Of a stretch of DNA of 64,000 nucleotides, positions 8,641 through 59,072 are shown piece by piece. The notes under the pieces were generated by a model, which did no database searches, was not told the DNA's origin, and worked only from the letters and a program-made list of their open reading frames with translations. Origin of the DNA: a bacterium (lineage in GTDB: Bacteria; Bacteroidota; Ignavibacteria; Kapaibacteriales; UBA2268); the NCBI GenBank assembly GCA_024711295.1, contig JANJTB010000028.1, forward strand, positions 1-64,000, in the 5' to 3' direction. Numbering within the stretch: the first letter of the stretch is position 1; each line of letters begins with the position of its first letter. The translations under genes and the position numbers were made by a program.

Positions 8641-8659
8641 TTATGTTTACTCCTAAATA

Positions 8660-8700
8660 TAAAAAAATCGGCTGCCTGAGGTTGGGAGCCAAAGACAGCC
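8660..8700 (-). terminator. Intrinsic terminator/attenuator in the leader of the cyclase gene
   Basis: Read on the minus strand, GGCUGUCU pairs with AGGCAGCC (8 bp with one G-U), with a small inner TTGG/CCAA stem, then GATTTTTTTA. It ends 19 bases before the cyclase ATG and before its Shine-Dalgarno. It therefore either ends a short RNA started in 8700-9000 or acts as an attenuator. Confidence 0.7.
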
Positions 8701-8790
8701 AAAGTTCGCTAAACGAGGTAATTTAGCTCGTGGATATGATCGGGATTAGAGGAAGCTTTTTCCATCATATGTGGTAAAAATATTTATATT
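8701..8790 (-). ncRNA. Putative structured leader RNA or small RNA upstream of the cyclase gene
   Basis: Part of the 423-base gap 8641-9063. Read on the minus strand, an ATATGAT/ATCATAT stem encloses a small GGAA/TTCC stem (about 8733-8769). Next, GCTAAA/TTTAGC (8708-8713 with 8722-8727) competes with an overlapping CGAG/CTCG pairing. The terminator at 8660-8700 follows. The base composition is clearly richer in G+C than the flanking AT-rich DNA. No known riboswitch core was recognised. The rest of the gap (8791-8995) is AT-rich with no gene seen. Direction is inferred from the U-tract only. Confidence 0.4.
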
Positions 8791-8995
8791 TATATTCCTA
8801 ATTGAATTAATTTACATACTAACTTTACACTTGCAAATATAATACTGATTTTGATAATTCCAAAACTTTTTTTAAATTTTCTTGTTTTTTTTTAATTTTT
8901 TAAATAATTAATTTTTATGAATATTTTTTTTAAACATAAGTATCATAAATTAAAGTGTAATTAACAAAAAAATATTCGACATTTTTAATTTAATA

Positions 8996-43438: not shown

Positions 43439-44506
43439 ATGCAAGACCATATCAATACTAACCCCTCAATAAATAAGATTACGCATAAAGAACTACTTGT
43501 TTTTATAACATTATTATTGTCAACTTTTTTGACATGTATGATCGCAGGTACACAGTGGGCATTCAAAGATTATCTTGAAGTAAGCAACTGGCATTATGGG
43601 GTTCAGTATTCAATACTTATTCTTACTTTTTTATCAGCACATGAATTCGGTCATTATATTGCGGCAAGAATTCACAATGTAAAAGCTACTCTACCCTTTT
43701 ATATCCCGATTCCTTTAACATTCACAATAAATTTTGGCACATTAGGAGCTGTAATCAAAACCAAAACACCTATTCCAGACAAGAATGCTTTATTCGATAT
43801 TGGGGTAGCGGGACCATTATCAGGTTTTATTGTAGCTTCATCCTTTCTGATTTACGGGCTTACGACACTCCCCGGTATAGAATTTATTTATAACCTTCAT
43901 CCGGAGTATATTGACTATTTCGGAGGCCAAATACCTGAAAAAGGACTTTTTTTTGGCGATACTTTATTTTACAATTTACTTGCTTCCACGATTGGTTCTA
44001 AAAGTGGCTTCTTACCTCCAATGAATGAAATTTATCACTACCCATTTTTAAATGTCGGCTGGTTCGGATTATTTGTCACTGCTCTTAATTTATTGCCTAT
44101 GGGACAACTTGATGGTGGTCATATCATTTATTCAATGTTTGGCAAAAAGGTTCATAAAATTTTAGCAAAAAGTACATTTTATATCCTATTGATTATAGGA
44201 ATTGGTGCTTTGCTTGGTGAAATCCATCTTTTACTCTCTGATAGTTTTAATAACCAAGCTTTAATTATCCTAAAATCTGTGCTATACCCGCCCTTAGATT
44301 TTATAAAACAGCACTTCCCTATTGCCTATAAGGGTTGGATTGGATGGCTCTTGTGGGCATTAATAGCAAGATTTGGTATCAAGCTTAATCATCCACCGGT
44401 GTATAACGAATCACCTATAAATTACAAAAGAAAAATTATTGGATATATAGCAATCGTAATACTTATAACAAGTTTCTCCTTTAATGGTATTTATATCATT
44501 CAATAG
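43439..44506 (+). CDS. Site-2 protease family (M50) membrane metallopeptidase
   Basis: A 355-residue integral membrane protease. The zinc motif HEFGH lies inside a membrane segment (AHEFGHYIAARIHNV), and the second motif, LPMGQLDGGH, supplies the third zinc ligand (Asp). About seven hydrophobic segments are present. The ATG at 43439 is preferred; an upstream start at 43397 would lie within the lysS terminator hairpin. Such proteases cut membrane anti-sigma factors or signal peptides inside the membrane. No PDZ domain is seen. No obvious substrate gene is nearby. Confidence 0.9.
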   Translation: MQDHINTNPSINKITHKELLVFITLLLSTFLTCMIAGTQWAFKDYLEVSNWHYGVQYSILILTFLSAHEFGHYIAARIHNVKATLPFYIPIPLTFTINFGTLGAVIKTKTPIPDKNALFDIGVAGPLSGFIVASSFLIYGLTTLPGIEFIYNLHPEYIDYFGGQIPEKGLFFGDTLFYNLLASTIGSKSGFLPPMNEIYHYPFLNVGWFGLFVTALNLLPMGQLDGGHIIYSMFGKKVHKILAKSTFYILLIIGIGALLGEIHLLLSDSFNNQALIILKSVLYPPLDFIKQHFPIAYKGWIGWLLWALIARFGIKLNHPPVYNESPINYKRKIIGYIAIVILITSFSFNGIYIIQ

Positions 44507-44565: not shown

Positions 44566-47500
44566 TTACCTCACCACAACCACCTGCTCCCTAAGCAGTG
44601 TCCAGGGGGCTGTTAAGTGGATTGTGTAAATGCCATTGCCCAGATTTTGGGTGTTGATGTTGTAGTCTTTTTGCTCGAATGTTTTGTCGGATTTTGTAAA
44701 TTCTGTGCGATACACTTCACGACCCTGAACATCAAATATTACAAGGCGGAAACTGCCCTCCTCCTGCGTGCCGATGCTGACCTTCAACTCTCCGTCTGTT
44801 GGATTAGGGGAGATAGACATACGGGTTGGGGTGTATTGCTGTATCCCACGAATTGGCACCTGACATAAGGAATCCAGTGTCAGTGAGCCGTCACGGGTAG
44901 TAACAGAAAGCGATGCTTCACTTTCGATAAACTCAATATGAATTGGGGTGGTCATTCTTGGTGAAAATAATACATCACCATTCAGATGGAAAAGTACAGT
45001 TTCTGTGCTTGTAATTTCTGGGAAAGTATTCTCAATGACCATACTTTCATAATTACCATCAGGGGTTTTACTTAGAATTTGAGCGTCAGGACTTGATACG
45101 TTGTAGTATAATTCAGGTAAATATCGTAAATTGAGTTTATATTTCTTGCCACTTATTTGTGCTCCAATATCTGTATCTGCAAATATTGGAATTTCATAAC
45201 CTTTTATTCCAACTTCAGAAGTGTGATGATTAGCCCAAATTGTCATTAATCGGCTGACATCTGATTTAAGCGCAATTTTGATTGAATCTTCACAATCACC
45301 AAGTCTAAAATATACAGTCATTTCATCGGCATATTCACCAATTATATCTGATGAGAATGATAGGTTTATCAATCCTTTTTCATTTTTGTAGATTGTTTTA
45401 GTAAATGATAAAATGCTGAAATTTGATGTATTAATTTTTACATCTGAAATTTCAATTTCTTCACTTCTATTCAAAATTTCAAAATTAATATTCTTGATTT
45501 CACCCGGTTTCAATTTGCCAAAGTCTAATTCAGTCAAATACTCAAGTTCAGGAATTACTCTTTCACCATTTATTTCTGCATCAAAATTTCTTTCAGAGCC
45601 ATCAATCATCAGTTTAGCCCGGACTTTTGCGAAATTCTGAGATTTCACTTTGTCTTGTGGTAAATACCGCACTGCAACAGCTATATATTTCCCTGACACC
45701 AATTCAATAGGTAATGTTAAAACATCCACGAATTCAAAACTACCATCATTTTCTATAAACGAAATATCAGTTACCTGAACAGGCGAATTTCCTGTATTAT
45801 AGATGCGGAGACTATCAATAAGTTCTTCGCACCAAGGCACTTTTCCAAAGTCTATTCCGATGATTTCTGCTTTTGAGGAATCAAACTTGCAAATCAAATT
45901 ACTTGTTAAATTTTGCGAGCATCTGCCACTGATAATAAACTCCAAATCTGCATTGATTTCGCCTGTTATTGAGGAAGACATTTCTAATTCAATTTCTATT
46001 TCCTGCATTGAGGGAATTTCAATCGGAAGTGCTGTTGCTAATGTTACTCTGTTATCACCAATTATAATATTATTTAGTGTGATATTATCTCTTGTATTAT
46101 TTCTGATTGTAAGCACTGTATCGTATAATACGTTTAGATTTCTGATGCCCATATCAATATCATTTGCTGATAAATCTATTTCGGCATATTCTCCTTTTAG
46201 TGGGCAATTAATAGTTTTTTCGGATGTAATAATTTCTAATATTGCGGTTTTATTACCATAAGGAGTTAGCGGTTTGTACTCTATAACAAAATTCACAGGA
46301 TTACCCCGTAACAAAATAGTTCCGTCTGTCGGCTTTTCAAGAATAGTGAAATTATCTGCATTTAATCCTATGATTTGTGATGAGTTGTATGTTACCGCGA
46401 AGTTGGTTACATTTTCAATCGTTATAGTATCTGTTTTATTCTCACAAAAATACAGATAGCCAAAGTCAAGTGAATCAGAATCAATGACGATACTTTCAGT
46501 TACTCCCACTCCCTTGATAAGTACCTCAAGTGTGTCAGGACAGCCCGTTCCGGCATAAATTTTATATTTGTACTCAAATGTTCCGGCAACTGTAGGAGTA
46601 AATTCTATTGTATAATCAAGGAATTCACCGCCTTTTATGAAATTGCTTGAACTTTCGGGAATTATCTGTTTAAATTCACTTGGCAAATCTTTAATTGCTT
46701 GTATCCATGAAGCAACATCACCATTATTGTGTATTCTGAATGTACCCGATGCTGTATTATTAATAAGTATTGTTCCCAAATCCCAGACTAAATCAGTTTC
46801 AATTATTACTGCTTTGGTTACTCCGCTAAACTCAACAGTATGGCTGAAATCTGAAATACTATTCTGCTTAAATACTACACTACCTGTATGAGTTTTATGC
46901 TGCTTGGGTGCGAAGATTATAGTAAATTCCTTCTTTTCACCCGCCTGAAGTGTGAATGCTTCATTTGGTACTATTCTGTATCCTTCTCCTGTCAAGTGCG
47001 GTGGCTCAAATTCCATTTGTGAGTGCCATTCGTTGCGGACTTCTACCTTAAATGAGGTCTCGTGATTTACGCATATTGTATCACTGATTTGTATTTTGGT
47101 TGGTGTTACACTCACAAGTTTGCTGTCATCAAGCTTAAAGCGGAAAGTAATCAGGTCAAAAAGTGCATTGGTACTCCAATATTTATCAATGGTATTCCAA
47201 TCCTGGTGTATGTGTGTATATGATTCTATTGGATAAAAATCATCAATATTATATTTGCTGCTATCCTGCATATAAGTCATTTCGTCAACATTGGAAACAA
47301 AATAGTCCAAATAAAGTTCATGATTAAATATTCGTGAGCTCTTAATTTCAAACAGTTGAAATTTTCTTGAACCTTCTTTAAGATTATCATATTTGATATA
47401 AAGAGCCGCAGTATCCTGCCAGATGACATCACCATCCGGTGACATTTTTGTTACCACAAGCCGCCTTGTGGTGGGGTGTGAGCGGTATTCAACTGAATCT

Positions 47501-49698
47501 ACAAATCTTTGTATAAATATATTACCTATGCTGTCCAAACTCATTATCAGTTCAGTTCCTGTGTTCATTGTTGTGTTGAACATAACTGTATGGTTATGAT
47601 ATATATTATCATTCATATCCAAATAATAATAATTTTCTTGCTCCCTTAATACCTTATCAAAAGTAGCTTCCAATTCACCATTATCATTAAAATCTGTATA
47701 ACTTGTACCAACTGTAGACCGCAAATCGCTAATTGAATAATTATCAGGAAATTTAAGGAACTGACTTAGCCATAAAAGTTTTCCTGTGCTATCGAATTTC
47801 ATAAGACAGGGCTGACCCTTATCAAGATTCGGATTATATGGATTAATCTTAATTCTGTCTTTGTACTTTTTCCATAATATATCATTCTTACCTAAGTTTT
47901 TTGTTAGATATATGTTTTTACTGCTGTCTATATGATATATTGTGTAGGGATGGTACCAACCATAACCTTCTCTTAGAGAATCTCCGCCCCTATATTTTTC
48001 AAAAAGAAATCTGAAATCATTATCCTGTTCGGATGTAAAAATAAGTTTCCCGTCTGAATCATAAATGTTGTAATATACGTCAAAGAAACTTTGGTTTTGT
48101 TTAAATTTTTCCTTATTTTTTATTTCCTGATTCATTGTTAAAAACGAACCATCATTTAAAAAACGCACAGTTTTATAATCCATGGTTATACTACTATAAC
48201 CAAAGTCACTTCTTGAAAAGTCAACTTGCCGCTTGTTTGCGATTAGATAGATTTTGTTACGTTTGATTTCATGGTTATAAATGAGGTCACCGCTCAGATT
48301 ATATTTCTGAAGGAACAATCCGTAATCATAAACTGTATCATTATTACCCGGATATTGCCCTAAAGCAATCAGAGTTATTGTACTATCTTTCAAATAGAGT
48401 ACTTTTTCATAAGACTTGTTATTATTCCATTCAAATCCACTATTATGTAATATACTCGCTTGATAATTGCTATTCACATCAGAAATCATGTTGAAGAATA
48501 ATTCGCCATCCATGTAAGTATGTTTGAGTTGTTTTATTCCTTCGGGTTTTTCGAGTTCAAAACGGTTAAGAAGCAATCCGCTTTTCATATCGAACATACT
48601 AACAAATACTGCCTCTCTATCATAAAAAAATGATGTACTATCGTAATATGTGTAAGATTGTGAATATACTGACGCTATACTGTCTGTTGCATCCCAGGAT
48701 ATGACAAAATTATATTTCTCATAAATATATGTACTCCATTCCTTTTCTCCTTCAGAATTATACTTGTATATTACAGCCGGTAAAAAATCAGTATAACGCC
48801 CATAGTATCGAATATGCTTTTTTGTACGAAATTTTGCATCCTCAATAAAATCCCTGTCTCTGACATCATTTGTAACAAGAAACATTGAGTTATCACTTAG
48901 TCTTTTTACATTGTTATAATTAAGTGAAAAGCTATAATAAAAAGGGTCCCAAGGACTTCTATCAAATCTGTATAATGATTTAATTCTGTTTAGTTTGGCA
49001 CTCACGAGGGTAACGGGGTCTATAATTAGTTCTTTTGATGTATCATAAGTATCTGTTTCAAAACTTAAAATATTACCGTTTAATACGTAATTACTGTTTA
49101 TTTCTTCTTCTTTGTTGTCAGTGATTTGGTATGTATAAGGAGCTTCCTTGTTAATCTCGCCAAGCAAAGTTGGTATAATCAGTTGCATATTATCATTTAA
49201 TGTCGGATTTTCGGAATGAATTATCTCCATACTGATTTGATTGGGGTCTGTTCCTGCGTGAACGATATAGTCATACCGCAAACTGCCTTCATCGTAATAA
49301 AATCTCAAATCAATTCCATCGTAAATTCCCTCATACACAACTTCTTCGAAGCTAAAAACTTTTGAAATGAACTCGCTTCCGCTCATAATAAAATTATCAT
49401 ATCCGGGCAATTTATGTTTTGTATCAGTTTTGAAATTAATATTACTGCTCTGTAATTCCACATCAACCCTCACGGCATCTAAACCTGTGCTGTCATAAGA
49501 TTTGATTACATAACTCCAACCGCTTTTACGAAGGTAAATAGTATAATTGTCAGCTTCACCGGTAAACAGGACTTCACTGCGGATATTGCCGGCATTATCC
49601 CTGATTTGTCCTTTGTTTTCTTGAAAAGAATAGGAAGCAAATACAAAATTAACACTCACTAAAAGCGAGACAATTACAGATAGTAGTAATCTTTTCAT
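44566..49698 (-). CDS. Giant T9SS secreted protein with SBBP-type N-terminus and anchor-D domains
   Basis: A 1710-residue secreted protein. After the signal peptide (through FVFA), the N-terminal region (about 25-230; FQENKGQIRDNAGNIRSEVLFTGEADNYTIYL) matches the domain that opens SBBP/anchor-type proteins (DUF7948-like). Residues about 240-880 look like a propeller or SBBP-like region with many Trp and Tyr. From about 890, repeated beta-sandwich modules of choice-of-anchor D type occur (FSHTVEFSGV, LDFGYLYFCENKTDTITIENV). The C-terminal 80 residues are a T9SS type A sorting domain (ISPNPTDGELKVSIG, LREQVVVVR). The end is nearly identical to that of the next giant gene. It is probably a surface protein; its role is unknown. 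Confidence 0.9.
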   Translation of the reverse strand: MKRLLLSVIVSLLVSVNFVFASYSFQENKGQIRDNAGNIRSEVLFTGEADNYTIYLRKSGWSYVIKSYDSTGLDAVRVDVELQSSNINFKTDTKHKLPGYDNFIMSGSEFISKVFSFEEVVYEGIYDGIDLRFYYDEGSLRYDYIVHAGTDPNQISMEIIHSENPTLNDNMQLIIPTLLGEINKEAPYTYQITDNKEEEINSNYVLNGNILSFETDTYDTSKELIIDPVTLVSAKLNRIKSLYRFDRSPWDPFYYSFSLNYNNVKRLSDNSMFLVTNDVRDRDFIEDAKFRTKKHIRYYGRYTDFLPAVIYKYNSEGEKEWSTYIYEKYNFVISWDATDSIASVYSQSYTYYDSTSFFYDREAVFVSMFDMKSGLLLNRFELEKPEGIKQLKHTYMDGELFFNMISDVNSNYQASILHNSGFEWNNNKSYEKVLYLKDSTITLIALGQYPGNNDTVYDYGLFLQKYNLSGDLIYNHEIKRNKIYLIANKRQVDFSRSDFGYSSITMDYKTVRFLNDGSFLTMNQEIKNKEKFKQNQSFFDVYYNIYDSDGKLIFTSEQDNDFRFLFEKYRGGDSLREGYGWYHPYTIYHIDSSKNIYLTKNLGKNDILWKKYKDRIKINPYNPNLDKGQPCLMKFDSTGKLLWLSQFLKFPDNYSISDLRSTVGTSYTDFNDNGELEATFDKVLREQENYYYLDMNDNIYHNHTVMFNTTMNTGTELIMSLDSIGNIFIQRFVDSVEYRSHPTTRRLVVTKMSPDGDVIWQDTAALYIKYDNLKEGSRKFQLFEIKSSRIFNHELYLDYFVSNVDEMTYMQDSSKYNIDDFYPIESYTHIHQDWNTIDKYWSTNALFDLITFRFKLDDSKLVSVTPTKIQISDTICVNHETSFKVEVRNEWHSQMEFEPPHLTGEGYRIVPNEAFTLQAGEKKEFTIIFAPKQHKTHTGSVVFKQNSISDFSHTVEFSGVTKAVIIETDLVWDLGTILINNTASGTFRIHNNGDVASWIQAIKDLPSEFKQIIPESSSNFIKGGEFLDYTIEFTPTVAGTFEYKYKIYAGTGCPDTLEVLIKGVGVTESIVIDSDSLDFGYLYFCENKTDTITIENVTNFAVTYNSSQIIGLNADNFTILEKPTDGTILLRGNPVNFVIEYKPLTPYGNKTAILEIITSEKTINCPLKGEYAEIDLSANDIDMGIRNLNVLYDTVLTIRNNTRDNITLNNIIIGDNRVTLATALPIEIPSMQEIEIELEMSSSITGEINADLEFIISGRCSQNLTSNLICKFDSSKAEIIGIDFGKVPWCEELIDSLRIYNTGNSPVQVTDISFIENDGSFEFVDVLTLPIELVSGKYIAVAVRYLPQDKVKSQNFAKVRAKLMIDGSERNFDAEINGERVIPELEYLTELDFGKLKPGEIKNINFEILNRSEEIEISDVKINTSNFSILSFTKTIYKNEKGLINLSFSSDIIGEYADEMTVYFRLGDCEDSIKIALKSDVSRLMTIWANHHTSEVGIKGYEIPIFADTDIGAQISGKKYKLNLRYLPELYYNVSSPDAQILSKTPDGNYESMVIENTFPEITSTETVLFHLNGDVLFSPRMTTPIHIEFIESEASLSVTTRDGSLTLDSLCQVPIRGIQQYTPTRMSISPNPTDGELKVSIGTQEEGSFRLVIFDVQGREVYRTEFTKSDKTFEQKDYNINTQNLGNGIYTIHLTAPWTLLREQVVVVR

Positions 49699-49764
49699 GA
49701 TATAACTCCAAAATAATTTTTATTCTATTCAAAAAACAACAAAAAAAGATTTTTTTACAACAAC

Positions 49765-52700
49765 TTACCTCACCACCACTACCTGCTCCCTCAGCATTGT
49801 CCATGGGGCTGTGAGATGTATAGTGTAAACTCCGTTTCCTAAGTCGTTGATATTAAATAAGTATTCGTGTATCTCAAAATTTCGGTTTGATTTGGTAAAT
49901 GTTTCTTTGGCGACTTCACGACCTTGAATTTCATAAATCGAAATTGTAAAATTACCTGATTCCTGTGAACCAAATTGTACTTTAATTTCTGTATCGCTCG
50001 GGTTTGGAGTAACTTTCATCGTTGTTGGCTGAAACATCTGTAAGCCACTGATATTATTGATACATCCGTCAACACGAAGCGAGCCGTCTTTGCTTTCGTA
50101 CAAATATTTTGGATTAGGGAAGTTTGCATTTGTGATTTTCATCGGAACGGTTTCTTCGCGACCAATTAGTGCCTGACCATAAATCAAGTTGATTTCACTT
50201 TCATTTTTATGAAAATCGGAATTTGCCGAAATTGTGATAACTCTATCATTTCCAATGATTTTATTTGATGATATAAGACCAATTTTAACGCTATCCGGCT
50301 TGAAATATTCCTTATCAATTGAAATTTCAAGGTCGTAATCTGAGCTTAAATTTTGTGGTTCTGGACAAATAATTTCAGCATTAACCGGTATTTCGATAAA
50401 TTTTCCCGGCTCAGTAGATATTTCTGAAAGTGAAAATTTTATGATTTGTTTTGCAGATGCGAAAATTGGAATAATTTTCTCAAGTTCACACGGAAAAATT
50501 GATTTTATGACTAATTCATCATCAAAAGTTCCTGCATCTGTTGGTTTGTAAGTTACCGTAATATCAATACTTTCACCCGATTTAACAACATTTTTTTCCA
50601 AATTTATTTCAAAAGCCGATGAGTTTGTTGAAACCTCAGATATTTTAAATTCTTCACCTTCATTTAATGTTATTTTTACTGTTTTCGATTGAGTTTCGCC
50701 AACGCATAAGTCATTGAAATTAAGTCGGTTAATATCAGTTGAGATTTTTGCATTATATTTTGTGATCGTAATTTCTGACGTATCGGCGCATCCAAACTCA
50801 TTTTTAACAATAAGTTTGTAAATTCCCGCATCTTTCACAGTAATTGAAGGAGTAGTTTCTCCGGTTGACCAGAGGTATTCTACGTAATTTTGCTTAGTAG
50901 AAATTGTTGCAAAATCATCGAAACATAGATTTGTTTTATCTGCTATTAATTCAAGAGCTAAATCAGGATAAATTTTCACTTCAATTTCGGCAGTATCGGC
51001 ACACAAATTTCCATTGCCGGCGATTAATCTATAAGTTCCTGATTCCGAAACACTTATGCTTTCTGATGTTTCTCCTGTTGACCATAAATATGAAAATTTA
51101 GTATTGAAATTATCGGCTGTGAGTGTGATTTTATTGCCGTAACAGACCTCTGTTTCAGTTGCAGAAATTTTTGCAATCGGAATTTCCAGAACATCAATTT
51201 TTACAAAAGCAGTATCATTACAGCCATTTGTCATACTTGCAATTAGATATAAATCTGCATTCTCGCTGAAAGTTCGCTCCGGTTCAGTGATTCCGTCTGA
51301 CCAAATATAATTATATTTAGTGTCAATTTTTATGGGTTTTATTGTCAATTTTTCACCTTCGCAGATTTGATAAAATGACTTTTCAAAAGTTACTTCCGGC
51401 TTTTCAAATTCTTCAATAATTACAGAATCCATTCCTTCGCAGCCCGCATCAGTTCTGACTTTCAGGACATATTTTCCGCCTTTTGTGATTAAAATTTGTG
51501 GAGTTTTTTCACCGGTTGACCAATCAAAATTGAAGTCATTACCAATTAAATTTGTAGAAATCAGCAAAGTATCGCCGGTGCAAAGTTTAGTTTGGGCAAC
51601 CATATCGAACTCTAAATCACTGCTATATATTACGTTTACGGTGTCCGACGCTTTACATCCATTTTCATTTTCAACTGTGAGAATATACCTGCCTTCATTT
51701 TTGACAGTGATACTTTGTGTTGTTTCACCTGTTGACCATTTGTATTTGTAACTATTTCCATTATTTGCACTTAGTGTAGTCGAGCCATTTTTACAAAAGG
51801 ATAAATTTCCCGATATTTTTGCTAAAGGTTTCGGGTAAATTTCAATCATTATTGAATCTTCACGAATCGTAGAATTTATATCAACCGTAACTTTGTACAT
51901 TCCGGAGTGCTTTTGATTTGTGTTCGATATTTTTATTGTTTTCCCGGTTCGCTCAGAGCCATCCGGAAGTAACCACGTATATTTATTGACAGTTATATCA
52001 GGGTTTGCATGAGCTGTAAGTACCAGTTCATCACCATCACAAACATTTTCTGAACTTATTTTTACATCAAAATCAAATATTCCGGTAGGGAAATTTGGAA
52101 AACCCCAATGACTACCTGATGATATAATTTTAGTACCACTCAAACTAAACTCACAGGAATCACCACTTAAATTCGGTTTATTAATGGCTGATAGTTTCCA
52201 ATCACCTGGTGAATAAAGTACTCCGTCAATATTAACAGTGTTATCCCTTGCTACATAAATTTTACCATTTGGTGCGAGTTGCAAACCATACATCCAACCT
52301 TGAATTCTATCTTTATATTCAGGATTATTTTCATAAATTATTTTTTTGCTGTCCAATATTGAAGAAACATCCATTTTTGAAATTTCATATTGATAAATAA
52401 TATTATTTTTATAAATTGAATCTTCAAAACCATGAACATAATTATGCAGAACATATAATTTACTATTATCCGGCGAAAACTCAATATCATATATATATAG
52501 ACTGTCAATTTTAAAATCAATCAATGATGATATTTTTCCGGTCATTTTATCAAATTTTAAAAGTTCAGTATTGCCATCAACTGAATTTACTAACAAATCA
52601 CCTTTCAAATTTGAACGTAATATTCTTAAAATCCCCGGAATGGGAAAAAACAAATTAGTTGAACTTATAATAGGAGTTTCAATATTAAGTCCATTCTCAT

Positions 52701-53334
52701 TAAATAAATATACAAAAAATTGTCTTGAATTATATTTATGAGTAATTATCCAATAATCTTTTCCATTAGCGTGTCTTATTGCCCTTAGTTGACCAGATGT
52801 TGGAGAATAAATTGGATTATTAATTGAAACAATTGCACCTTTACCATCGTTTTTACTCATATCCACAACTGAATAATAATAACCTGTATCAAGAATGTTA
52901 TTTACACTACAATAACAATGCGAAGTAAATATGTAATAAATATTATTATTCCCAGGGAGCTTGGTTATAACAGAGCTATATTGAGCTACATGAAATCCAA
53001 ACATTCTATTTGATATTAATCCCAGTAAAGAATCATTAAATAACATATAATCTGAATCATTTGAATAATTATATAGATATACTCCATCAGAAGAAAATAG
53101 AAATTTACCAGTTGAATCGGAAATAGCTGAACTTCCCCAATTAATCCAATTATAATCAACAAACTTATGTGAATATTTTCTCATCACACTTGGCATTAAT
53201 ATAGCCGGCTCGCCATCCGGTGTATTAAATGTAATTACATTTGGACCACCAAAGTCCCAGTTATATGCTTCTTTTTGGGCAATTGAAGTAGAGAAAGAAA
53301 AAATAAATATAAGAAATATGTATAGAGTTTTCAT
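49765..53334 (-). CDS. Giant T9SS secreted protein with six repeated Ig/PKD-like modules
   Basis: A 1189-residue secreted protein. The start at 53334 gives a signal peptide (MKTLYIFLIFIFSFSTSIA); an ATG at 53379 would lie in a terminator hairpin. Residues about 20-420 form a propeller-like head (GDLLVNSVDG, DIEFSPDNSKLYVLHN). About six modules of roughly 70 residues follow (about 425-900), most with CxGD near the start, a central YxWSTGETT and GCxDT at the end; the paired Cys suggest one disulfide per module. An anchor-D-like domain (about 915-985) and another beta-sandwich precede the T9SS type A sorting domain (VTPNPSDTEIKV, LREQVVVVR). Adhesion or surface-gliding roles are possible, but not shown. 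Confidence 0.9.
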   Translation of the reverse strand: MKTLYIFLIFIFSFSTSIAQKEAYNWDFGGPNVITFNTPDGEPAILMPSVMRKYSHKFVDYNWINWGSSAISDSTGKFLFSSDGVYLYNYSNDSDYMLFNDSLLGLISNRMFGFHVAQYSSVITKLPGNNNIYYIFTSHCYCSVNNILDTGYYYSVVDMSKNDGKGAIVSINNPIYSPTSGQLRAIRHANGKDYWIITHKYNSRQFFVYLFNENGLNIETPIISSTNLFFPIPGILRILRSNLKGDLLVNSVDGNTELLKFDKMTGKISSLIDFKIDSLYIYDIEFSPDNSKLYVLHNYVHGFEDSIYKNNIIYQYEISKMDVSSILDSKKIIYENNPEYKDRIQGWMYGLQLAPNGKIYVARDNTVNIDGVLYSPGDWKLSAINKPNLSGDSCEFSLSGTKIISSGSHWGFPNFPTGIFDFDVKISSENVCDGDELVLTAHANPDITVNKYTWLLPDGSERTGKTIKISNTNQKHSGMYKVTVDINSTIREDSIMIEIYPKPLAKISGNLSFCKNGSTTLSANNGNSYKYKWSTGETTQSITVKNEGRYILTVENENGCKASDTVNVIYSSDLEFDMVAQTKLCTGDTLLISTNLIGNDFNFDWSTGEKTPQILITKGGKYVLKVRTDAGCEGMDSVIIEEFEKPEVTFEKSFYQICEGEKLTIKPIKIDTKYNYIWSDGITEPERTFSENADLYLIASMTNGCNDTAFVKIDVLEIPIAKISATETEVCYGNKITLTADNFNTKFSYLWSTGETSESISVSESGTYRLIAGNGNLCADTAEIEVKIYPDLALELIADKTNLCFDDFATISTKQNYVEYLWSTGETTPSITVKDAGIYKLIVKNEFGCADTSEITITKYNAKISTDINRLNFNDLCVGETQSKTVKITLNEGEEFKISEVSTNSSAFEINLEKNVVKSGESIDITVTYKPTDAGTFDDELVIKSIFPCELEKIIPIFASAKQIIKFSLSEISTEPGKFIEIPVNAEIICPEPQNLSSDYDLEISIDKEYFKPDSVKIGLISSNKIIGNDRVITISANSDFHKNESEINLIYGQALIGREETVPMKITNANFPNPKYLYESKDGSLRVDGCINNISGLQMFQPTTMKVTPNPSDTEIKVQFGSQESGNFTISIYEIQGREVAKETFTKSNRNFEIHEYLFNINDLGNGVYTIHLTAPWTMLREQVVVVR

Positions 53335-53354
53335 AACTGGCTCAGTATTATAAA

Positions 53355-53398
53355 TTAAAAAAATACAGATGCCCGGCAATTAAAAAATGCCGGACATC
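53355..53398 (-). terminator. Intrinsic terminator after the Cys-rich T9SS gene
   Basis: Read on the minus strand, GATGTCCGGCA pairs with TGCCGGGCATC (10 of 11 positions), followed by a T-rich tract. It lies 30 bases after the stop of the Cys-rich gene and just upstream of the giant gene starting at 53334. Confidence 0.82.
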
Positions 53399-53427
53399 CA
53401 TTGTCATTATATTACAATTTTCTTCAT

Positions 53428-54825
53428 TTAGTTTTTAATAAACTTAATGCTTGAAATTTGTAAACCATTCTCAATAATTTGTAAATAATAAACACCGTTT
53501 GCTATGTGTGATAAGTCAATTTTAAAGTTATTATTACCGGATTTCGCACTTATTTCGGTAAAAAAGACTTCCATACCAGTCATGTCAACAATTTTAATTT
53601 TGTGTGAACCGCTATTTATAGCATCAAAATTAAGGTTAAACAATCCTGTTGTCGGATTAGGAATAATATTAACTTTAATTTTTTCATTATCTTTGGATTC
53701 GTTAACACTCAATTTAGGTAATGAATAAGGACCCGAATTTAAAATATCACAAATGTCTGTGCAGTTAATTGTGCACAATTCAGGAGATGGATTTCTATTT
53801 ACTTCAGTAGCAGTTATGTTTGGTAAAGTGCCGGTTATCTGAAATTCTATCGTACAGCATCCATTTGTACAACCTATATAAATTGGCAATGCAGAATAAA
53901 GCTGAGTTAAACATTTCCATACATTTACTTTAATATTGAATGGAAGGGTTACACCGGGCTTACTAGCATAGTCAAATAATGCTTTCTTAATCAACAATTC
54001 TAAAGCTGTTTCAGGAGTTAGAGGTCCTGAATGTATCCAAAAATAATGTAAATTAATGCAAGGAATACCACCATTAAAGCCAATTGAGAATTCTCCGGTA
54101 ACTCTATTACCTCCCGCATTATGTTCAACTAACATAGGCATAATACTTTGGCTGGTATTACAACCGGAAGTACAAGCACTTGGTAATTTTCCAAATAAAT
54201 CAAATAAACCATTTTCTGGAAATAATGTATCAGCACAATTATCTCTGCAAGTTATACATCCTGGTATAACTGTACATGGTGCACCACCAGTTAATCTTGA
54301 ATCAACCAAACTTACATCATTTGCAACACTATCCCAACCTGCTTTAAAGTCAAATCTACAACATCCTGTTCCACAACTTTCAAATACAGTAGTCATTGTT
54401 GGGTCATCGCAGTTTTGTGCAATAATACAAGCTGGAACAGAAATTGAACCCTCTCCAATATTGTGTCCTGCACTTGCAGCAATGACTGCTTTTACTGCAG
54501 CATCCATCATTTTGTCTTGATCTTTGTAACAATCACCAACAGCTTTAATACTAGTTATATTAAATCTCCAGTAAGGAAATAGACTAGGAGGGCATGCCTG
54601 ATAACGTGTTAATGTATATGTAACATCAACGCAGCAGTATGTATTTGTACTTCCATCAAAAGTACATGCGGTAGTTTGGTAAGTAATTGGAACAAAGCCA
54701 GGGTCTGGAAGGCAGTCCGGTAATGGACAAGGTGGAGGCTCGTTCATAGAACGAACATTGGTAGAAACGATAATCATCATCGCAAAAACTACGATGAGAG
54801 CGAAGAAAAAGTTAGACTTTTTCAT
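53428..54825 (-). CDS. Cysteine-rich T9SS secreted protein with duplicated modules
   Basis: A 465-residue secreted protein with signal peptide (through VRS) and a T9SS-type C-terminal domain (IIPNPTTGLFNLNFD, NGVYYLQIIENGLQISSIKFIKN). The region between has an exceptional number of cysteines, including CC pairs at YCCVD, GCCRFDF and GCCTIEF. The second and third pairs close similar modules: an amphipathic helix (DAAVKAVIAASAG or ELLIKKALFDYAS), a strand region, then CxxGCCx(F/I)xF. The first CC (YCCVDVTYTL) may be a partial third copy. No known domain was recognised. GGAG lies before the ATG. A structured intergenic element (54876-54977) lies upstream, and a terminator follows. Confidence 0.85.
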   Translation of the reverse strand: MKKSNFFFALIVVFAMMIIVSTNVRSMNEPPPCPLPDCLPDPGFVPITYQTTACTFDGSTNTYCCVDVTYTLTRYQACPPSLFPYWRFNITSIKAVGDCYKDQDKMMDAAVKAVIAASAGHNIGEGSISVPACIIAQNCDDPTMTTVFESCGTGCCRFDFKAGWDSVANDVSLVDSRLTGGAPCTVIPGCITCRDNCADTLFPENGLFDLFGKLPSACTSGCNTSQSIMPMLVEHNAGGNRVTGEFSIGFNGGIPCINLHYFWIHSGPLTPETALELLIKKALFDYASKPGVTLPFNIKVNVWKCLTQLYSALPIYIGCTNGCCTIEFQITGTLPNITATEVNRNPSPELCTINCTDICDILNSGPYSLPKLSVNESKDNEKIKVNIIPNPTTGLFNLNFDAINSGSHKIKIVDMTGMEVFFTEISAKSGNNNFKIDLSHIANGVYYLQIIENGLQISSIKFIKN

Positions 54826-54875
54826 AAAGAGACTCCTTTAAAATTTAATAATATATAAATTAATAAACCACAGGA

Positions 54876-54977
54876 GTATTCGTCTCTGTCTGTTAGAAGT
54901 TGACCAAACTTCAGACAGTATAAACGAATACCGTCGGCGGCTATAACATTCATTGTTGTAGCCGTTTTTATTTTTTC
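54876..54977 (+). ncRNA. Putative small structured RNA with intrinsic terminator
   Basis: In the gap 54826-55109. GTATTCGT pairs with ACGAATAC (54876-54883/54924-54931), inside it CTGTCTG pairs with CAGACAG (54886-54892/54912-54918), and inside that AAGTT pairs with AACTT, a nested stem of about 20 bp. A second hairpin, CGGCTATAACA/TGTTGTAGCCG (54938-54948/54954-54964), is followed at once by TTTTTATTTTTT. The U-tract points to a plus-strand RNA of roughly 100 bases; there is no plus-strand gene upstream that needs a terminator. Alternatively the fold acts in the minus-strand leader of the Cys-rich gene. No known RNA family was recognised. Confidence 0.5.
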
Positions 54978-55109
54978 ATTAATGACATATCCACAAGTCA
55001 TAATTATTTGATTTTTTCAAAATATTATTTGCAAAATAACAAATAATTTTGTATGAAGCAAATCAATTTTTTAGTTTATATAACATTTAGTCGATATTTA
55101 CTATTTTAG

Positions 55110-55910
55110 CTAAAATATAATCAAATTTATATTTGGCAGTAGGTGCCATTTTCCTCCAAAAGGGTATTCTCCGTAACATAACTTTGCACCACCAATAATA
55201 TTGACTTTCTTTGATACTTTCCAAACCAGATTAGTATTAATTTCTGTAAAATAGCGCATGTTGCTGTGCTCGGGGTATTCATCATCAATTTTAGTAGCTG
55301 TCAAAGGGAACGAAAATAATGTTACACTTCCATTAAAATTGAAATTTTTGTCGATATAGTTCTCAGAAATGCAAGTAAAACTTATCCCTAAAGACTTATA
55401 TAATACTGCCGTTCTAGGAAAAATTACAGGTAGGTCAATTGATGTTGCCGGGCTTAAATTTTTGTTATTTAGAGCAAAATCAATCAATATCATTGCTGAA
55501 ATATAATTCAATGAATCAATTTTAAATGTAGATATTAATCCATTTGAGACCGAAACCATATTTGGAATTTCAAACTCCGGAGATATAAATCCTCCTGCAC
55601 CTGAGCTTTTGACCAATGACAACAGCAATGTGGGGTAATTGACCGAGTGTAATGACGAAAAAGCCAGATCAGCATCTTTATAAAAACTATATTTCAGTTC
55701 AACTGAGGGCGAAATGAAGAAGGATAAAGGATTTAATGATAATGAAAGATTTTCGCTGAAAGTGTACTCTGAAAAAGTAAAAAGTGAAAGGTAGTAGTTA
55801 TTAGTTTCGGGAATAAATGAGTTCTTGTCGGAGAATTTGAATAACTCAGAAGAATTGGATATGTTGTAGTTCATCAGAAATATTATTATCAGAAATATGT
55901 ACTTTTTCAT
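55110..55910 (-). CDS. Exported envelope protein of unknown function (beta-barrel-like)
   Basis: A 266-residue exported protein. GGAGG lies five bases before the ATG at 55910, which makes that start secure, and the protein then begins MKKYIFLIIIFLMNYNISNS, a signal peptide. The mature part has alternating strands with aromatic residues (YYLSLFTFSEYTFSENLSLSLNPLS and onward), suggesting an outer-membrane barrel, and the end (HLLPNINLIIF) fits the hydrophobic last strand with terminal Phe. No family was recognised. It lies 86 bases after the nuclease-fold lipoprotein gene on the same strand. Confidence 0.65.
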   Translation of the reverse strand: MKKYIFLIIIFLMNYNISNSSELFKFSDKNSFIPETNNYYLSLFTFSEYTFSENLSLSLNPLSFFISPSVELKYSFYKDADLAFSSLHSVNYPTLLLSLVKSSGAGGFISPEFEIPNMVSVSNGLISTFKIDSLNYISAMILIDFALNNKNLSPATSIDLPVIFPRTAVLYKSLGISFTCISENYIDKNFNFNGSVTLFSFPLTATKIDDEYPEHSNMRYFTEINTNLVWKVSKKVNIIGGAKLCYGEYPFGGKWHLLPNINLIIF

Positions 55911-55996
55911 TTTAACCTCCAAAGACAGCTAACAGCAGCATGGTCGGAAAGCGCTCTCAGGTTACTGTAAACGGTATGTGAATCATTTACCCACTC

Positions 55997-56986
55997 TCAG
56001 TTCGAAAATAAGTAATCTAAAGTTCTATCCCATGATGTTTTCGGATTAGTGGTATGAGTAAAATATATGTTAGTATTGAGATATCTGTCAAGACCTAAAG
56101 AGGCATGAAAATCCTGAAAAAAGGGAGTCAACCAATTGATTTCGGGTGTATAAAAACTACCTTCCTTATGAAAAGGATTATCGCCACCTCCGTGAAAATG
56201 TTCATCAGGGCACATGTCTTCGATGCAATAATCACTTTTCTCGGAATTTGGAGGTAATAAATTAAAATCTCCACCAATAACTAATGATTTAGATTCTTGA
56301 TTACACTTATTCATAAAATTGAGTACAACATCTACTTGCCTTTTCTTTGTGTCATCTGTAGAAAAGGCTTCGAGATGAACATTCGCAACTGTAATTTCGA
56401 TATTGCTGCCTAAATCAATTGTGCACTCTATGAAATTCTGACGAAGATAGAAGTATTTGGTAAGTGCGTCTAAATCATTTCTCAATGGGAATGGATGCAA
56501 CTTATGGCTCTTAATTTTCCATTTTGAAAAAATAGCTTTACCGTCGTTTATTTTGCCTAATCCATCACTTGGTACAAACTGAACATCCCAATTTGAACCA
56601 AAAACAGCATTCGTAAATGAGGTTTTTTGAAGAATATAATCAACTTCATCAATATATGCAGTTTTTTTGCTACTGATGTCAATCTCCTGAATCAATAAAA
56701 TATCAGGATTAATTCGGTTAATTTCAGTAATAATGTTGTTTAAGTTATTTATTACTTCAGCTCTAGTAAATAAAGACCTATTACCGCAGGCATCACCAAA
56801 CCACTGTTCAAGACCACCACATGCAAAACGAATATTCCAGGTCATAATTAGTAATGTGTCTTTAACCGGATGTTCAGTTTGGGATTTTGAATAATATTTA
56901 CATTCCTGAATTTCGTCAAGTGTATTGACTAATGGCTGACAGCTACAGATAACAAACACCAGCAAAAAAAGAAGCGTTTTTTTCAT
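55997..56986 (-). CDS. Endonuclease/exonuclease/phosphatase family lipoprotein
   Basis: A 329-residue predicted lipoprotein. The ATG at 56986 has GGAG upstream and gives a signal peptide with a lipobox (LLFLLVFVICSC); longer starts lose it. The EEP fold is visible in LLIMTWNIRFACGG (first strand with Asn), DILLIQEIDI (catalytic Glu), NVHLEAFSTDD, VIGGDFNLLP (Asp and Asn) and SWDRTLDYLF (final Asp in RTLDYLF where the family usually has IDYIF). The usual final SDH motif is absent because the protein ends there, so activity on DNA or phosphoesters is uncertain. It diverges from typA with 268 bases between. Confidence 0.82.
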   Translation of the reverse strand: MKKTLLFLLVFVICSCQPLVNTLDEIQECKYYSKSQTEHPVKDTLLIMTWNIRFACGGLEQWFGDACGNRSLFTRAEVINNLNNIITEINRINPDILLIQEIDISSKKTAYIDEVDYILQKTSFTNAVFGSNWDVQFVPSDGLGKINDGKAIFSKWKIKSHKLHPFPLRNDLDALTKYFYLRQNFIECTIDLGSNIEITVANVHLEAFSTDDTKKRQVDVVLNFMNKCNQESKSLVIGGDFNLLPPNSEKSDYCIEDMCPDEHFHGGGDNPFHKEGSFYTPEINWLTPFFQDFHASLGLDRYLNTNIYFTHTTNPKTSWDRTLDYLFSN

Positions 56987-57160
56987 TTCAGCTCCAAATT
57001 TTATAGTTTCAGATAAGAAAATTTTCATTTCTTAATACATTATTTTTAATATTCAAACTTAATGATTTTTATAGTAATTAGCAAGATATTTTTTAATCTT
57101 TGTCAATCATTTTAATTGTATATATTATATACTATAAAATTGTTTTAATCGTTTTATTTA

Positions 57161-57254: not shown

Positions 57255-59072
57255 ATGAGAAAAGAGAATTTTAGAAATATTGCCATCATAGCGCACGTTG
57301 ACCATGGCAAAACAACATTAGTTGACCATTTACTTCGCCAAAGCGGCACATTCAGAGCTAATCAGCAAGTAGATGAAAGAATCATGGACTCGATGGATTT
57401 AGAAAGAGAGCGCGGTATAACCATTTCGGCAAAAAATACGTCGGTTGAGTACAAAGGAATCAAAATAAATATTATGGATACTCCCGGTCACGCCGATTTT
57501 GGTGGCGAAGTAGAGCGCAGTCTAAATCTGGTTGATGGTGCATTACTTTTGGTTGACTCAAGCGAAGGTCCGCTACCACAAACAAGATTTGTTTTGAAGA
57601 AAGCGCTTGCTAGAAGTTTACCAATAATAGTTGTAATAAATAAAATTGACAGACCTGATGCAAGAATTCAAGAAGTAATTAATGAAATTTATGATTTATT
57701 TATTGATTTGGACGCTGATGACTCTCAAATAGAATTCCCGATTATTTATACAATTGCCAAAGAAGGAAAGGCTTTCCTAAAAGTTGGAGAGGAGTCAGAC
57801 TCGTTAGAAGTGTTATTCGAAGCAATTATTAACACCATACCTGGTCCTATTGCCACTGATGACGAAGTACCCCAATTTTTGGTAACAAGTTTGGACTATG
57901 ACTCTTATGTCGGGCAAATTCTTATCGGAAGGTTGTCGCATGGTAGTCTTGCTATGAACAAGAGTTATCTGTTATATGGCGAGAATGATTCTAAAACAAC
58001 AGTTAAGTTCTCCGCTCTATATACTTTCAAAGGATTACAAAAAAAGCAGGTTGACACAGTAGAAGCCGGGGATATCATTGCAATTGCTGGTATCGAAAAT
58101 GCAAAAATCGGAGATACTATTACTTCAATTGATAATCCCAAACCTCTCGAAAGAATAAAAGTAGATGAGCCAACTGTATCTATGATTTTTTACGTTAATA
58201 ACAGCCCGTTCGCAGGCACTGAAGGTCAATACCTGACAACAAGACATCTAAAAGGACGCTTGGAAAAGGAACTTCTGCGTAATGTATCAATTCAAGTCGA
58301 ACCTACAGACAGAGCAGATGCATTCGAGGTAAAAGGACGTGGTGAACTTCAGATGGCTATACTTATTGAAACCATGAGAAGAGAAGGATTCGAATTTATG
58401 GTTTCGAAACCAAATGTAATCACAAGAGAGGAAGACGGAAAGACTTTAGAGCCATACGAAATGGTTTATATTGATGTTCCTGAAGAGTTTACGGGAGTGG
58501 TTACAGAAAAACTTTCAATCCGAAAAGGAATCATGCAAAATATGATAAACCATGGACATGGTAGAGTAGATTTAGAATTTAGAATACCAGCACGCGGATT
58601 GATCGGTTATAGAAGTCAGTTTCTGACCGATACCAAGGGCTCAGGAATAATGAATACATTGTTTGATGGGTACGATAATTGGGCAGGAAATATACCTCAA
58701 CGTGTTTCAGGTGCATTGGTTGCCGACCGTCCAGGAAGAGCAACAGCGTATGCGGCATTTGGAATGGAAGATAGAGGCGATTTATTTATCCCTGTAGGAA
58801 CTCAAGTGTACATGGGCATGGTAATTGGTGAAAGAAACAAAACATCTGATCTCGATATCAATATTACTAAGGAAAAGAAGCTCACAAACATGCGTGCTTC
58901 CGGTTCTGATGCAACTGTTGTACTCAGACCGCCAAGGATGCTTACTCTCGACCAGGCTATCGAATTCATTGCTGATGACGAGCTGATTGAAGTAACTCCA
59001 GAAAATATTAGAATCCGTAAAATGGAGCTTGACTACAAGTACCGTAAACCGAAGACCAAAGATTTAGACTAA
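57255..59072 (+). CDS. typA: Translational GTPase TypA/BipA
   Basis: A 605-residue ribosome-binding GTPase involved in growth at low temperature or stress and in ribosome assembly. The G motifs are complete: AHVDHGKTT (G1), RGITI (G2), DTPGHADFGGEVER (G3) and NKIDRPDAR (G4). The EF-G-like domains follow, with SPFAGTEGQYLTTRHLKGRLEKE typical of BipA, then RGLIGYRSQFLTDTKGSGIMNTLFDGY in the C-terminal part. The tail KYRKPKTKDLD is short. Full length. A strong terminator follows, so it is probably monocistronic. It is a highly conserved boundary to the AT-rich block downstream. Confidence 0.97.
   Translation: MRKENFRNIAIIAHVDHGKTTLVDHLLRQSGTFRANQQVDERIMDSMDLERERGITISAKNTSVEYKGIKINIMDTPGHADFGGEVERSLNLVDGALLLVDSSEGPLPQTRFVLKKALARSLPIIVVINKIDRPDARIQEVINEIYDLFIDLDADDSQIEFPIIYTIAKEGKAFLKVGEESDSLEVLFEAIINTIPGPIATDDEVPQFLVTSLDYDSYVGQILIGRLSHGSLAMNKSYLLYGENDSKTTVKFSALYTFKGLQKKQVDTVEAGDIIAIAGIENAKIGDTITSIDNPKPLERIKVDEPTVSMIFYVNNSPFAGTEGQYLTTRHLKGRLEKELLRNVSIQVEPTDRADAFEVKGRGELQMAILIETMRREGFEFMVSKPNVITREEDGKTLEPYEMVYIDVPEEFTGVVTEKLSIRKGIMQNMINHGHGRVDLEFRIPARGLIGYRSQFLTDTKGSGIMNTLFDGYDNWAGNIPQRVSGALVADRPGRATAYAAFGMEDRGDLFIPVGTQVYMGMVIGERNKTSDLDINITKEKKLTNMRASGSDATVVLRPPRMLTLDQAIEFIADDELIEVTPENIRIRKMELDYKYRKPKTKDLD

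Follow-up and report, generated by a model that had tools for sequence, protein, structure and literature searches.

The intergenic gap at positions 54826-55109 of the window (the whole 64,000-nucleotide stretch of DNA that was analyzed) contains a folded structure, confirmed to be real, at 54876-54977. It consists of a long hairpin and, 4 nt further along the plus strand, an intrinsic terminator, which serves no accepted gene because no plus-strand gene is called between 44506 and 57255. With a probability of about 0.4, this element would form the 3' end of a short noncoding RNA that is read from the plus strand and lies antisense to the leader of the adjacent minus-strand gene for a Cys-rich protein (hereafter, the Cys gene). 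The features of the locus are the following:

53365-53401, minus strand: terminator, 26 nt 3' of the Cys gene
53428-54825, minus strand: Cys gene, encoding a Cys-rich protein with a T9SS sorting tail (PF18962, from Pfam), with one homologue found, in genome G074
54056-54520, plus strand: 154-codon ORF within the Cys gene, which stops about 415 nt ahead of the terminator of the element, taken as a shadow
54672-54679, plus strand: best promoter-like -7 box upstream of the element (from 54600 on), inside the Cys gene, score 10.0
54822-55001, minus strand: 59-codon ORF, ending with ATGA on the start codon of the Cys gene, judged not coding
54832-54837, minus strand: AGGAGT, ribosome-binding site of the Cys gene, in line with Shine-Dalgarno (SD) use in this genome
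54873-54877, minus strand: ACTCC, at the base of the long hairpin, a possible partner of this ribosome-binding site by predicted pairing
54876-54931, plus strand: long hairpin of 20 nested pairs, stems GTATTCGT/ACGAATAC, CTGTCT/AGACAG and GAAGTT/AACTTC
54936-54977, plus strand: intrinsic terminator with a 13-pair stem, a 5-nt loop and a T tract (-18.7 kcal/mol on plus, -11.5 on minus)
54992-55063, minus strand: two weak promoter-like sites, with -7 boxes at 54999-54992 and 55039-55032, both upstream of the hairpins

A stable fold with a plus-strand terminator

The original prediction of about 20 nested base pairs is borne out: the stems of the long hairpin comprise 8, 6 and 6 pairs, 20 in all, interrupted by a 2x5 internal loop and a 4-nt bulge. 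The region 54860-54980 folds with -39.4 kcal/mol on the plus strand (z -7.7) and with -36.0 kcal/mol on the minus strand (z -4.6), and on either strand none of the 200 shuffled sequences was equally stable. Taken alone (54874-54933), the long hairpin is predicted to lean slightly to the minus strand, with -22.6 kcal/mol compared with -20.8 kcal/mol on the plus strand, a U-G pair lengthening the lower stem on the minus strand. The background set consisted of the window and 400 kb of the same genome beside it (464 kb in total), with genes called by ORF length, and the folding scan of this set covered 1616 windows of 110 nt in 158 intergenic regions, with 20 shuffles each. The gap ranks third among the 158 regions by folding z-score and holds the second-lowest window energy of the scan, behind a window over tRNA-Pro; omitting the two of the 1616 windows that had been set on the element manually leaves it in third place, with a z-score of -8.1.

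The second hairpin, described at the outset as 11 bp long with a U-tract, indeed has 11 inner pairs (one of them G-U), or 13 with the two G-U pairs at its end, and then the T tract. Thus, a GC-containing stem-loop directly followed by a T tract, beyond chance expectation, which is the mark of an intrinsic terminator, is found at 54936-54977. The hairpin is better on the plus strand because three G-U pairs on this strand become A-C on the minus strand, and the T tract is present on the plus strand only; as modeled, the terminator speaks clearly for the plus strand. The detector, one and the same for both strands, gives it an energy of -17.6 kcal/mol. A chance fold is unlikely because shuffled DNA almost never yields such energy: in dinucleotide-shuffled intergenic DNA (185 stretches, 35 kb, both strands, 12 rounds), the mean number of terminators at or below -15 kcal/mol was 0.08, and that of terminators at or below -17 kcal/mol was 0.0 per 35 kb.

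Across the 464 kb, there are 46 terminators at or below -15 kcal/mol, of which 33 have a same-strand gene before them, 10 lie inside called genes and three are gene-less, the one at 54936-54977 being the strongest of the three. Of the other two, one belongs to the leader of a cyclase gene, and one is a two-way terminator read in reverse, at the edge of the 400-kb stretch. The classing knew only ORFs as genes, not RNA genes, and two terminators beside the tRNA-Leu gene, one per strand, were also classed as gene-less, so that RNA genes leave gene-less terminators as a trace. In genome G000, a hairpin at C38:147142-147187 has terminator scores of -14.0 on one strand and -12.1 on the other, without a preceding same-strand gene.

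The element lies downstream of the minus-strand operon formed by an endonuclease gene and the gene at 55110-55922, a position that would suit a terminator of that operon. This explanation is hardly credible given that the T tract is absent on the minus strand and that the hairpin begins 143 nt past the stop codon, compared with 12-39 nt for 25 of the 28 terminators that follow a gene in the list of the 40 strongest.

Coding potential, relatives and gene neighborhood

The original claim that the element contains no ORF holds for its plus strand but not for the minus strand, where the 59-codon ORF at 54822-55001 crosses it. No plus-strand ORF of at least 20 codons is present in 54842-55109, and a 27-codon ORF ends at 54841. 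As a coupled leader peptide, the 59-codon ORF was rejected: with a codon score of -0.053, it falls under the 5% point for pieces of real genes (0.005) and inside the range seen for intergenic DNA. Its length was matched in 21 of 2000 shuffles on its own strand with an ATG start, and in 68 of 2000 when any start and both strands were allowed; ORFs of at least 40 codons ending near the downstream start occur in 7 of 93 gaps, this one counted. It has no Pfam match, and the one weak match among 122 other genomes of the order (E 0.0023) contains two stops. Inside the five minus-strand genes of the neighborhood there are three plus-strand ORFs, of 88-154 codons. The 154-codon ORF has a codon score of 0.134, the second highest among 38 antisense ORFs of at least 100 codons (the Cys gene scores 0.119), and such a gene-like value speaks against a shadow; it is nevertheless considered a shadow, since the similarity between the Cys gene and its homologue extends along the whole gene whereas the plus-strand ORF shows no similarity to that region of G074. 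A Pfam match for this ORF was not found either. A longer, coding plus-strand transcript is still conceivable.

The element is single-copy in its own genome, where a further 26 matches are all short, the best having an E value of 0.011. A repeat or mobile element was therefore rejected, and no phage or plasmid record matches. Elsewhere in the genome, the pattern of the inner stem is found once more, with a different loop, and the three-stem pattern is absent from the viral contigs searched. A covariance model search of 53 other family genomes, a check that the original prediction proposed, gave no convincing homologue; the model was built from this one sequence, and the best non-self E value was 0.043. 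Matches at E <= 10 are found in 10 of these 53 genomes; of the seven matches in other genomes shown as alignments, five, with the four best among them (E 0.043-0.67), are simply terminators that differ in sequence, and in the remaining two, from G068 (E 0.68) and G017 (E 2.6), it is chiefly the long hairpin that is aligned. Several pairs are broken in these two, which are taken for chance matches and not for homologues of the element. Searching 59 other genomes with blastn gave no convincing homologue; there are matches at E <= 1 in 45 of the 59, and among the matches listed most cover only the T-rich end, the longest reaching a few dozen bases. The positive control in this search, the cyclase leader (8650-8835), found its counterpart in the same-genus genome G002 with an E value of 1.6e-21. 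In Rfam 15, no family matches the element at or above the gathering threshold, and the whole 64-kb window gives only the tRNA; two matches far below gathering in 54800-55110 fall at 55006-55068 and none on the element.

The leader of the PF04199 cyclase gene (8641-8841, minus strand) combines a strong TAnnTTTG promoter (score 22.5) with an intrinsic terminator shortly before the SD, and has no Rfam match above gathering. The counterpart in G002 (L220:1435-1609) is 83% identical over 103 nt, and the gene 3' of it encodes a protein 46% identical to the cyclase over 202 aa. Between the two terminator stems there is one two-sided change (G-C to A-U) and one one-sided change. The leader is a candidate attenuator or riboswitch that is better supported than the element at 54876-54977.

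The gap is flanked by two minus-strand genes, one at 55110-55922 and the Cys gene. Between the M50 peptidase gene, which ends at 44506, and bipA, which starts at 57255, five genes are called, all on the minus strand, and three of the five carry T9SS sorting tails. The block at 44566-57028 appears to be an accessory one, either inserted here or lost in G002, because in the latter genome the M50 peptidase gene is separated from bipA by 10 bp. Partner pairs of the block are found separately, the Cys gene with an Ig gene in G074, and the endonuclease gene with the gene at 55110-55922 in G009 and G012. PF18962 is the sole Pfam family above the cut-off in the Cys gene, which is no susC homologue. 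Among the 54 family genomes searched, the only homologue of the Cys gene is that in G074, which has 30% identity and, next to it on the 3' side, a homologue of the same Ig gene; a profile including this homologue found no third one in 391 genomes of the class, and of 12 pattern matches in genome contigs none was confirmed.

The 10-bp distance between the M50 peptidase gene and bipA in G002, and the separate occurrence of the flanking pairs in G074, G009 and G012, would fit a 12.7-kb block of mosaic origin in which the terminator is left over from a plus-strand gene once located to the left, or stops antisense read-through, with the hairpin functionless. However, no mismatch has accumulated in the stems of the long hairpin, which is unlikely for an old relic, and the gap is free of plus-strand ORFs of at least 20 codons save for the end of the 27-codon ORF. 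This explanation is possible but not the favored one.

Promoters and the leader of the Cys gene

The genome contains 39 tRNA genes. An exact TAnnTTTG is present in 24 of the 31 tRNA upstream stretches examined, and clear TTTG and TA(T/C)TTTTG boxes are seen, a type of pattern given for the Bacteroides sigma-ABfr (PMC7366714). The promoter matrix, with the motif TAnnTTTG, was built from 23 tRNA upstream stretches of this genome, of which 20 score at least 19.9 in training, and the left-out tRNA-Leu site scores 25.7. A de novo search for promoter words upstream of genes gave no informative result. The genome combines Bacteroides-type TAnnTTTG promoters of tRNA genes with clear Shine-Dalgarno use, a combination that differs from descriptions of F. 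johnsoniae.

On the plus strand, none of the 14 best TAnnTTTG-type sites of 54600-55150 (the lowest of which scores 1.6) lies in 54680-54876. The box at 54672-54679 ranks 51 of about 128,000 positions, which is about chance level, and a sigma-70 scan of 54500-55300 yielded no plus-strand site. The two minus-strand sites in the gap score 11.6 each and rank 22 and 23 of about 128,000 positions, and are considered weak because, among 38 control gaps between tandem genes, a score of 11.5 is reached on 9 sense and 6 antisense strands. The promoter evidence counts against a strongly expressed plus-strand RNA with its own promoter and leaves the strand undecided. Of the plus-strand small RNA originally proposed, the strand-specific terminator supports the RNA end, but neither a nearby plus-strand promoter nor a homologue was found. 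An invertible promoter was also considered and rejected, there being no promoter-like site between the arms of the long hairpin. Both minus-strand promoter-like sites are enclosed by an AT-rich 81% inverted repeat (54847-54867 and 55067-55087).

The Cys gene probably ends its own transcript at the terminator at 53365-53401 and, having a terminator of its own, probably needs its own promoter in the gap. This would suit a structured minus-strand leader of the Cys mRNA, the other possibility raised originally. Such a leader would start near 55028 or 54985 and include both hairpins, CTCC-GGAG pairing would keep translation low until it is opened, and the likeness to a plus-strand terminator would be secondary. 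The two best minus-strand sites in the gap are located upstream of the hairpins, compared with a best score of 3.4 within 54826-54875, and the slightly greater stability of the long hairpin on the minus strand points in the same direction. Against these stand the weakness of the promoter scores, the region upstream of the Cys homologue in G074, which is without such a hairpin pair and where the SD is predicted to be paired differently, and the plus-strand bias of the terminator, which a minus-strand leader leaves unexplained. On balance, this reading is possible but doubtful.

Some leaders control translation via an anti-SD segment, and the predicted ACTCC-GGAGT pairing in the Cys leader is of this kind, although for the Cys leader there is no known alternative fold, ligand or conservation. 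The segment had been placed inside the fold; this is incorrect, as the plus-strand GGAGT at 54873-54877 lies at the base of the fold and contributes two of its five bases to the 8-pair stem. The genes of this genome use SD sequences, in contrast to F. johnsoniae as described in abstracts: SD-like words show a strong positional preference, with 99 at -15 to -6 of 250 genes compared with 2 for the complement. With the leader and 60 nt of coding sequence, the predicted probability that the Cys SD is unpaired is 0.07-0.12, compared with 0.53 without the leader and 0.56-0.57 with the partner changed in silico; the cost of opening it is 3.5 kcal/mol in one construct. For the folding windows -150..+60 and -100..+30, the accessibility of the Cys SD is the lowest among 67 genes with an SD. 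The occlusion depends on the folding window, however: with -200..+30 the value is 0.2, and 16 of the 67 genes are at or below it, the Cys gene included, whereas the longer leader with only 15 nt of coding sequence gives 0.40, the SD being paired largely elsewhere. Thus, both the minus-strand regulatory leader and the control of translation by SD pairing that were originally suggested are possible, inasmuch as the SD is used in this genome and occlusion of the Cys SD is predicted, though not equally in all folding windows; the CTCC-GGAG pairing may hide the Cys SD, given an mRNA start upstream of the hairpins.

The two strands might also work together as a switch, the minus-strand leader hiding the SD of the T9SS cargo gene and a plus-strand antisense RNA forming a duplex with the ACTCC segment, by which translation would be turned on. 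Blocking 54870-54975 in silico raises the accessibility of the SD from 0.07-0.40 to 0.26-0.55, with a rise in all 8 of 8 window choices; such a switch is still a long shot.

The candidate antisense RNA and known systems

The preferred reading is a plus-strand RNA that would start in the AT-rich part of the gap, at about 54840-54870, or within the 5' end of the Cys gene, fold into the 20-pair hairpin and stop at the intrinsic terminator near 54977. It would be perfectly complementary to any Cys mRNA leader transcribed through this stretch and would act in cis on the Cys mRNA, either by duplex formation or by polymerase collision. The existence of this transcript, its start site and its action on the Cys gene are what we infer from the terminator and its setting.

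DonS, an antisense RNA of Bacteroides, reportedly overlaps the 5' end of the opposite gene. The DonS-like cis-antisense RNAs, as described, have susC homologues in polysaccharide loci as their partner genes, and they have been detected as RNAs (PMC7366714). Like these, the candidate RNA would be located opposite a gene for a surface or secreted protein, in the same broad bacterial group; unlike these, it would face a T9SS-tailed Cys-rich gene, not susC, and is a prediction from the sequence. A second point of reference is the B. thetaiotaomicron catalogue of intergenic small RNAs, for which a defined transcription start is required (PMC7366714). The element resembles the small RNAs described there in being intergenic and in having a stable fold and a Rho-independent terminator (PMC7366714), whereas on its plus strand no TAnnTTTG-type promoter was found in 54680-54876.

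If the preferred reading is true, a T9SS cargo gene of an uncultured lineage would be under the control of an RNA encoded here. More generally, strong gene-less terminators, with three among 46 in 464 kb, seem to be rare enough to suggest that they mark unannotated RNA in this genome.
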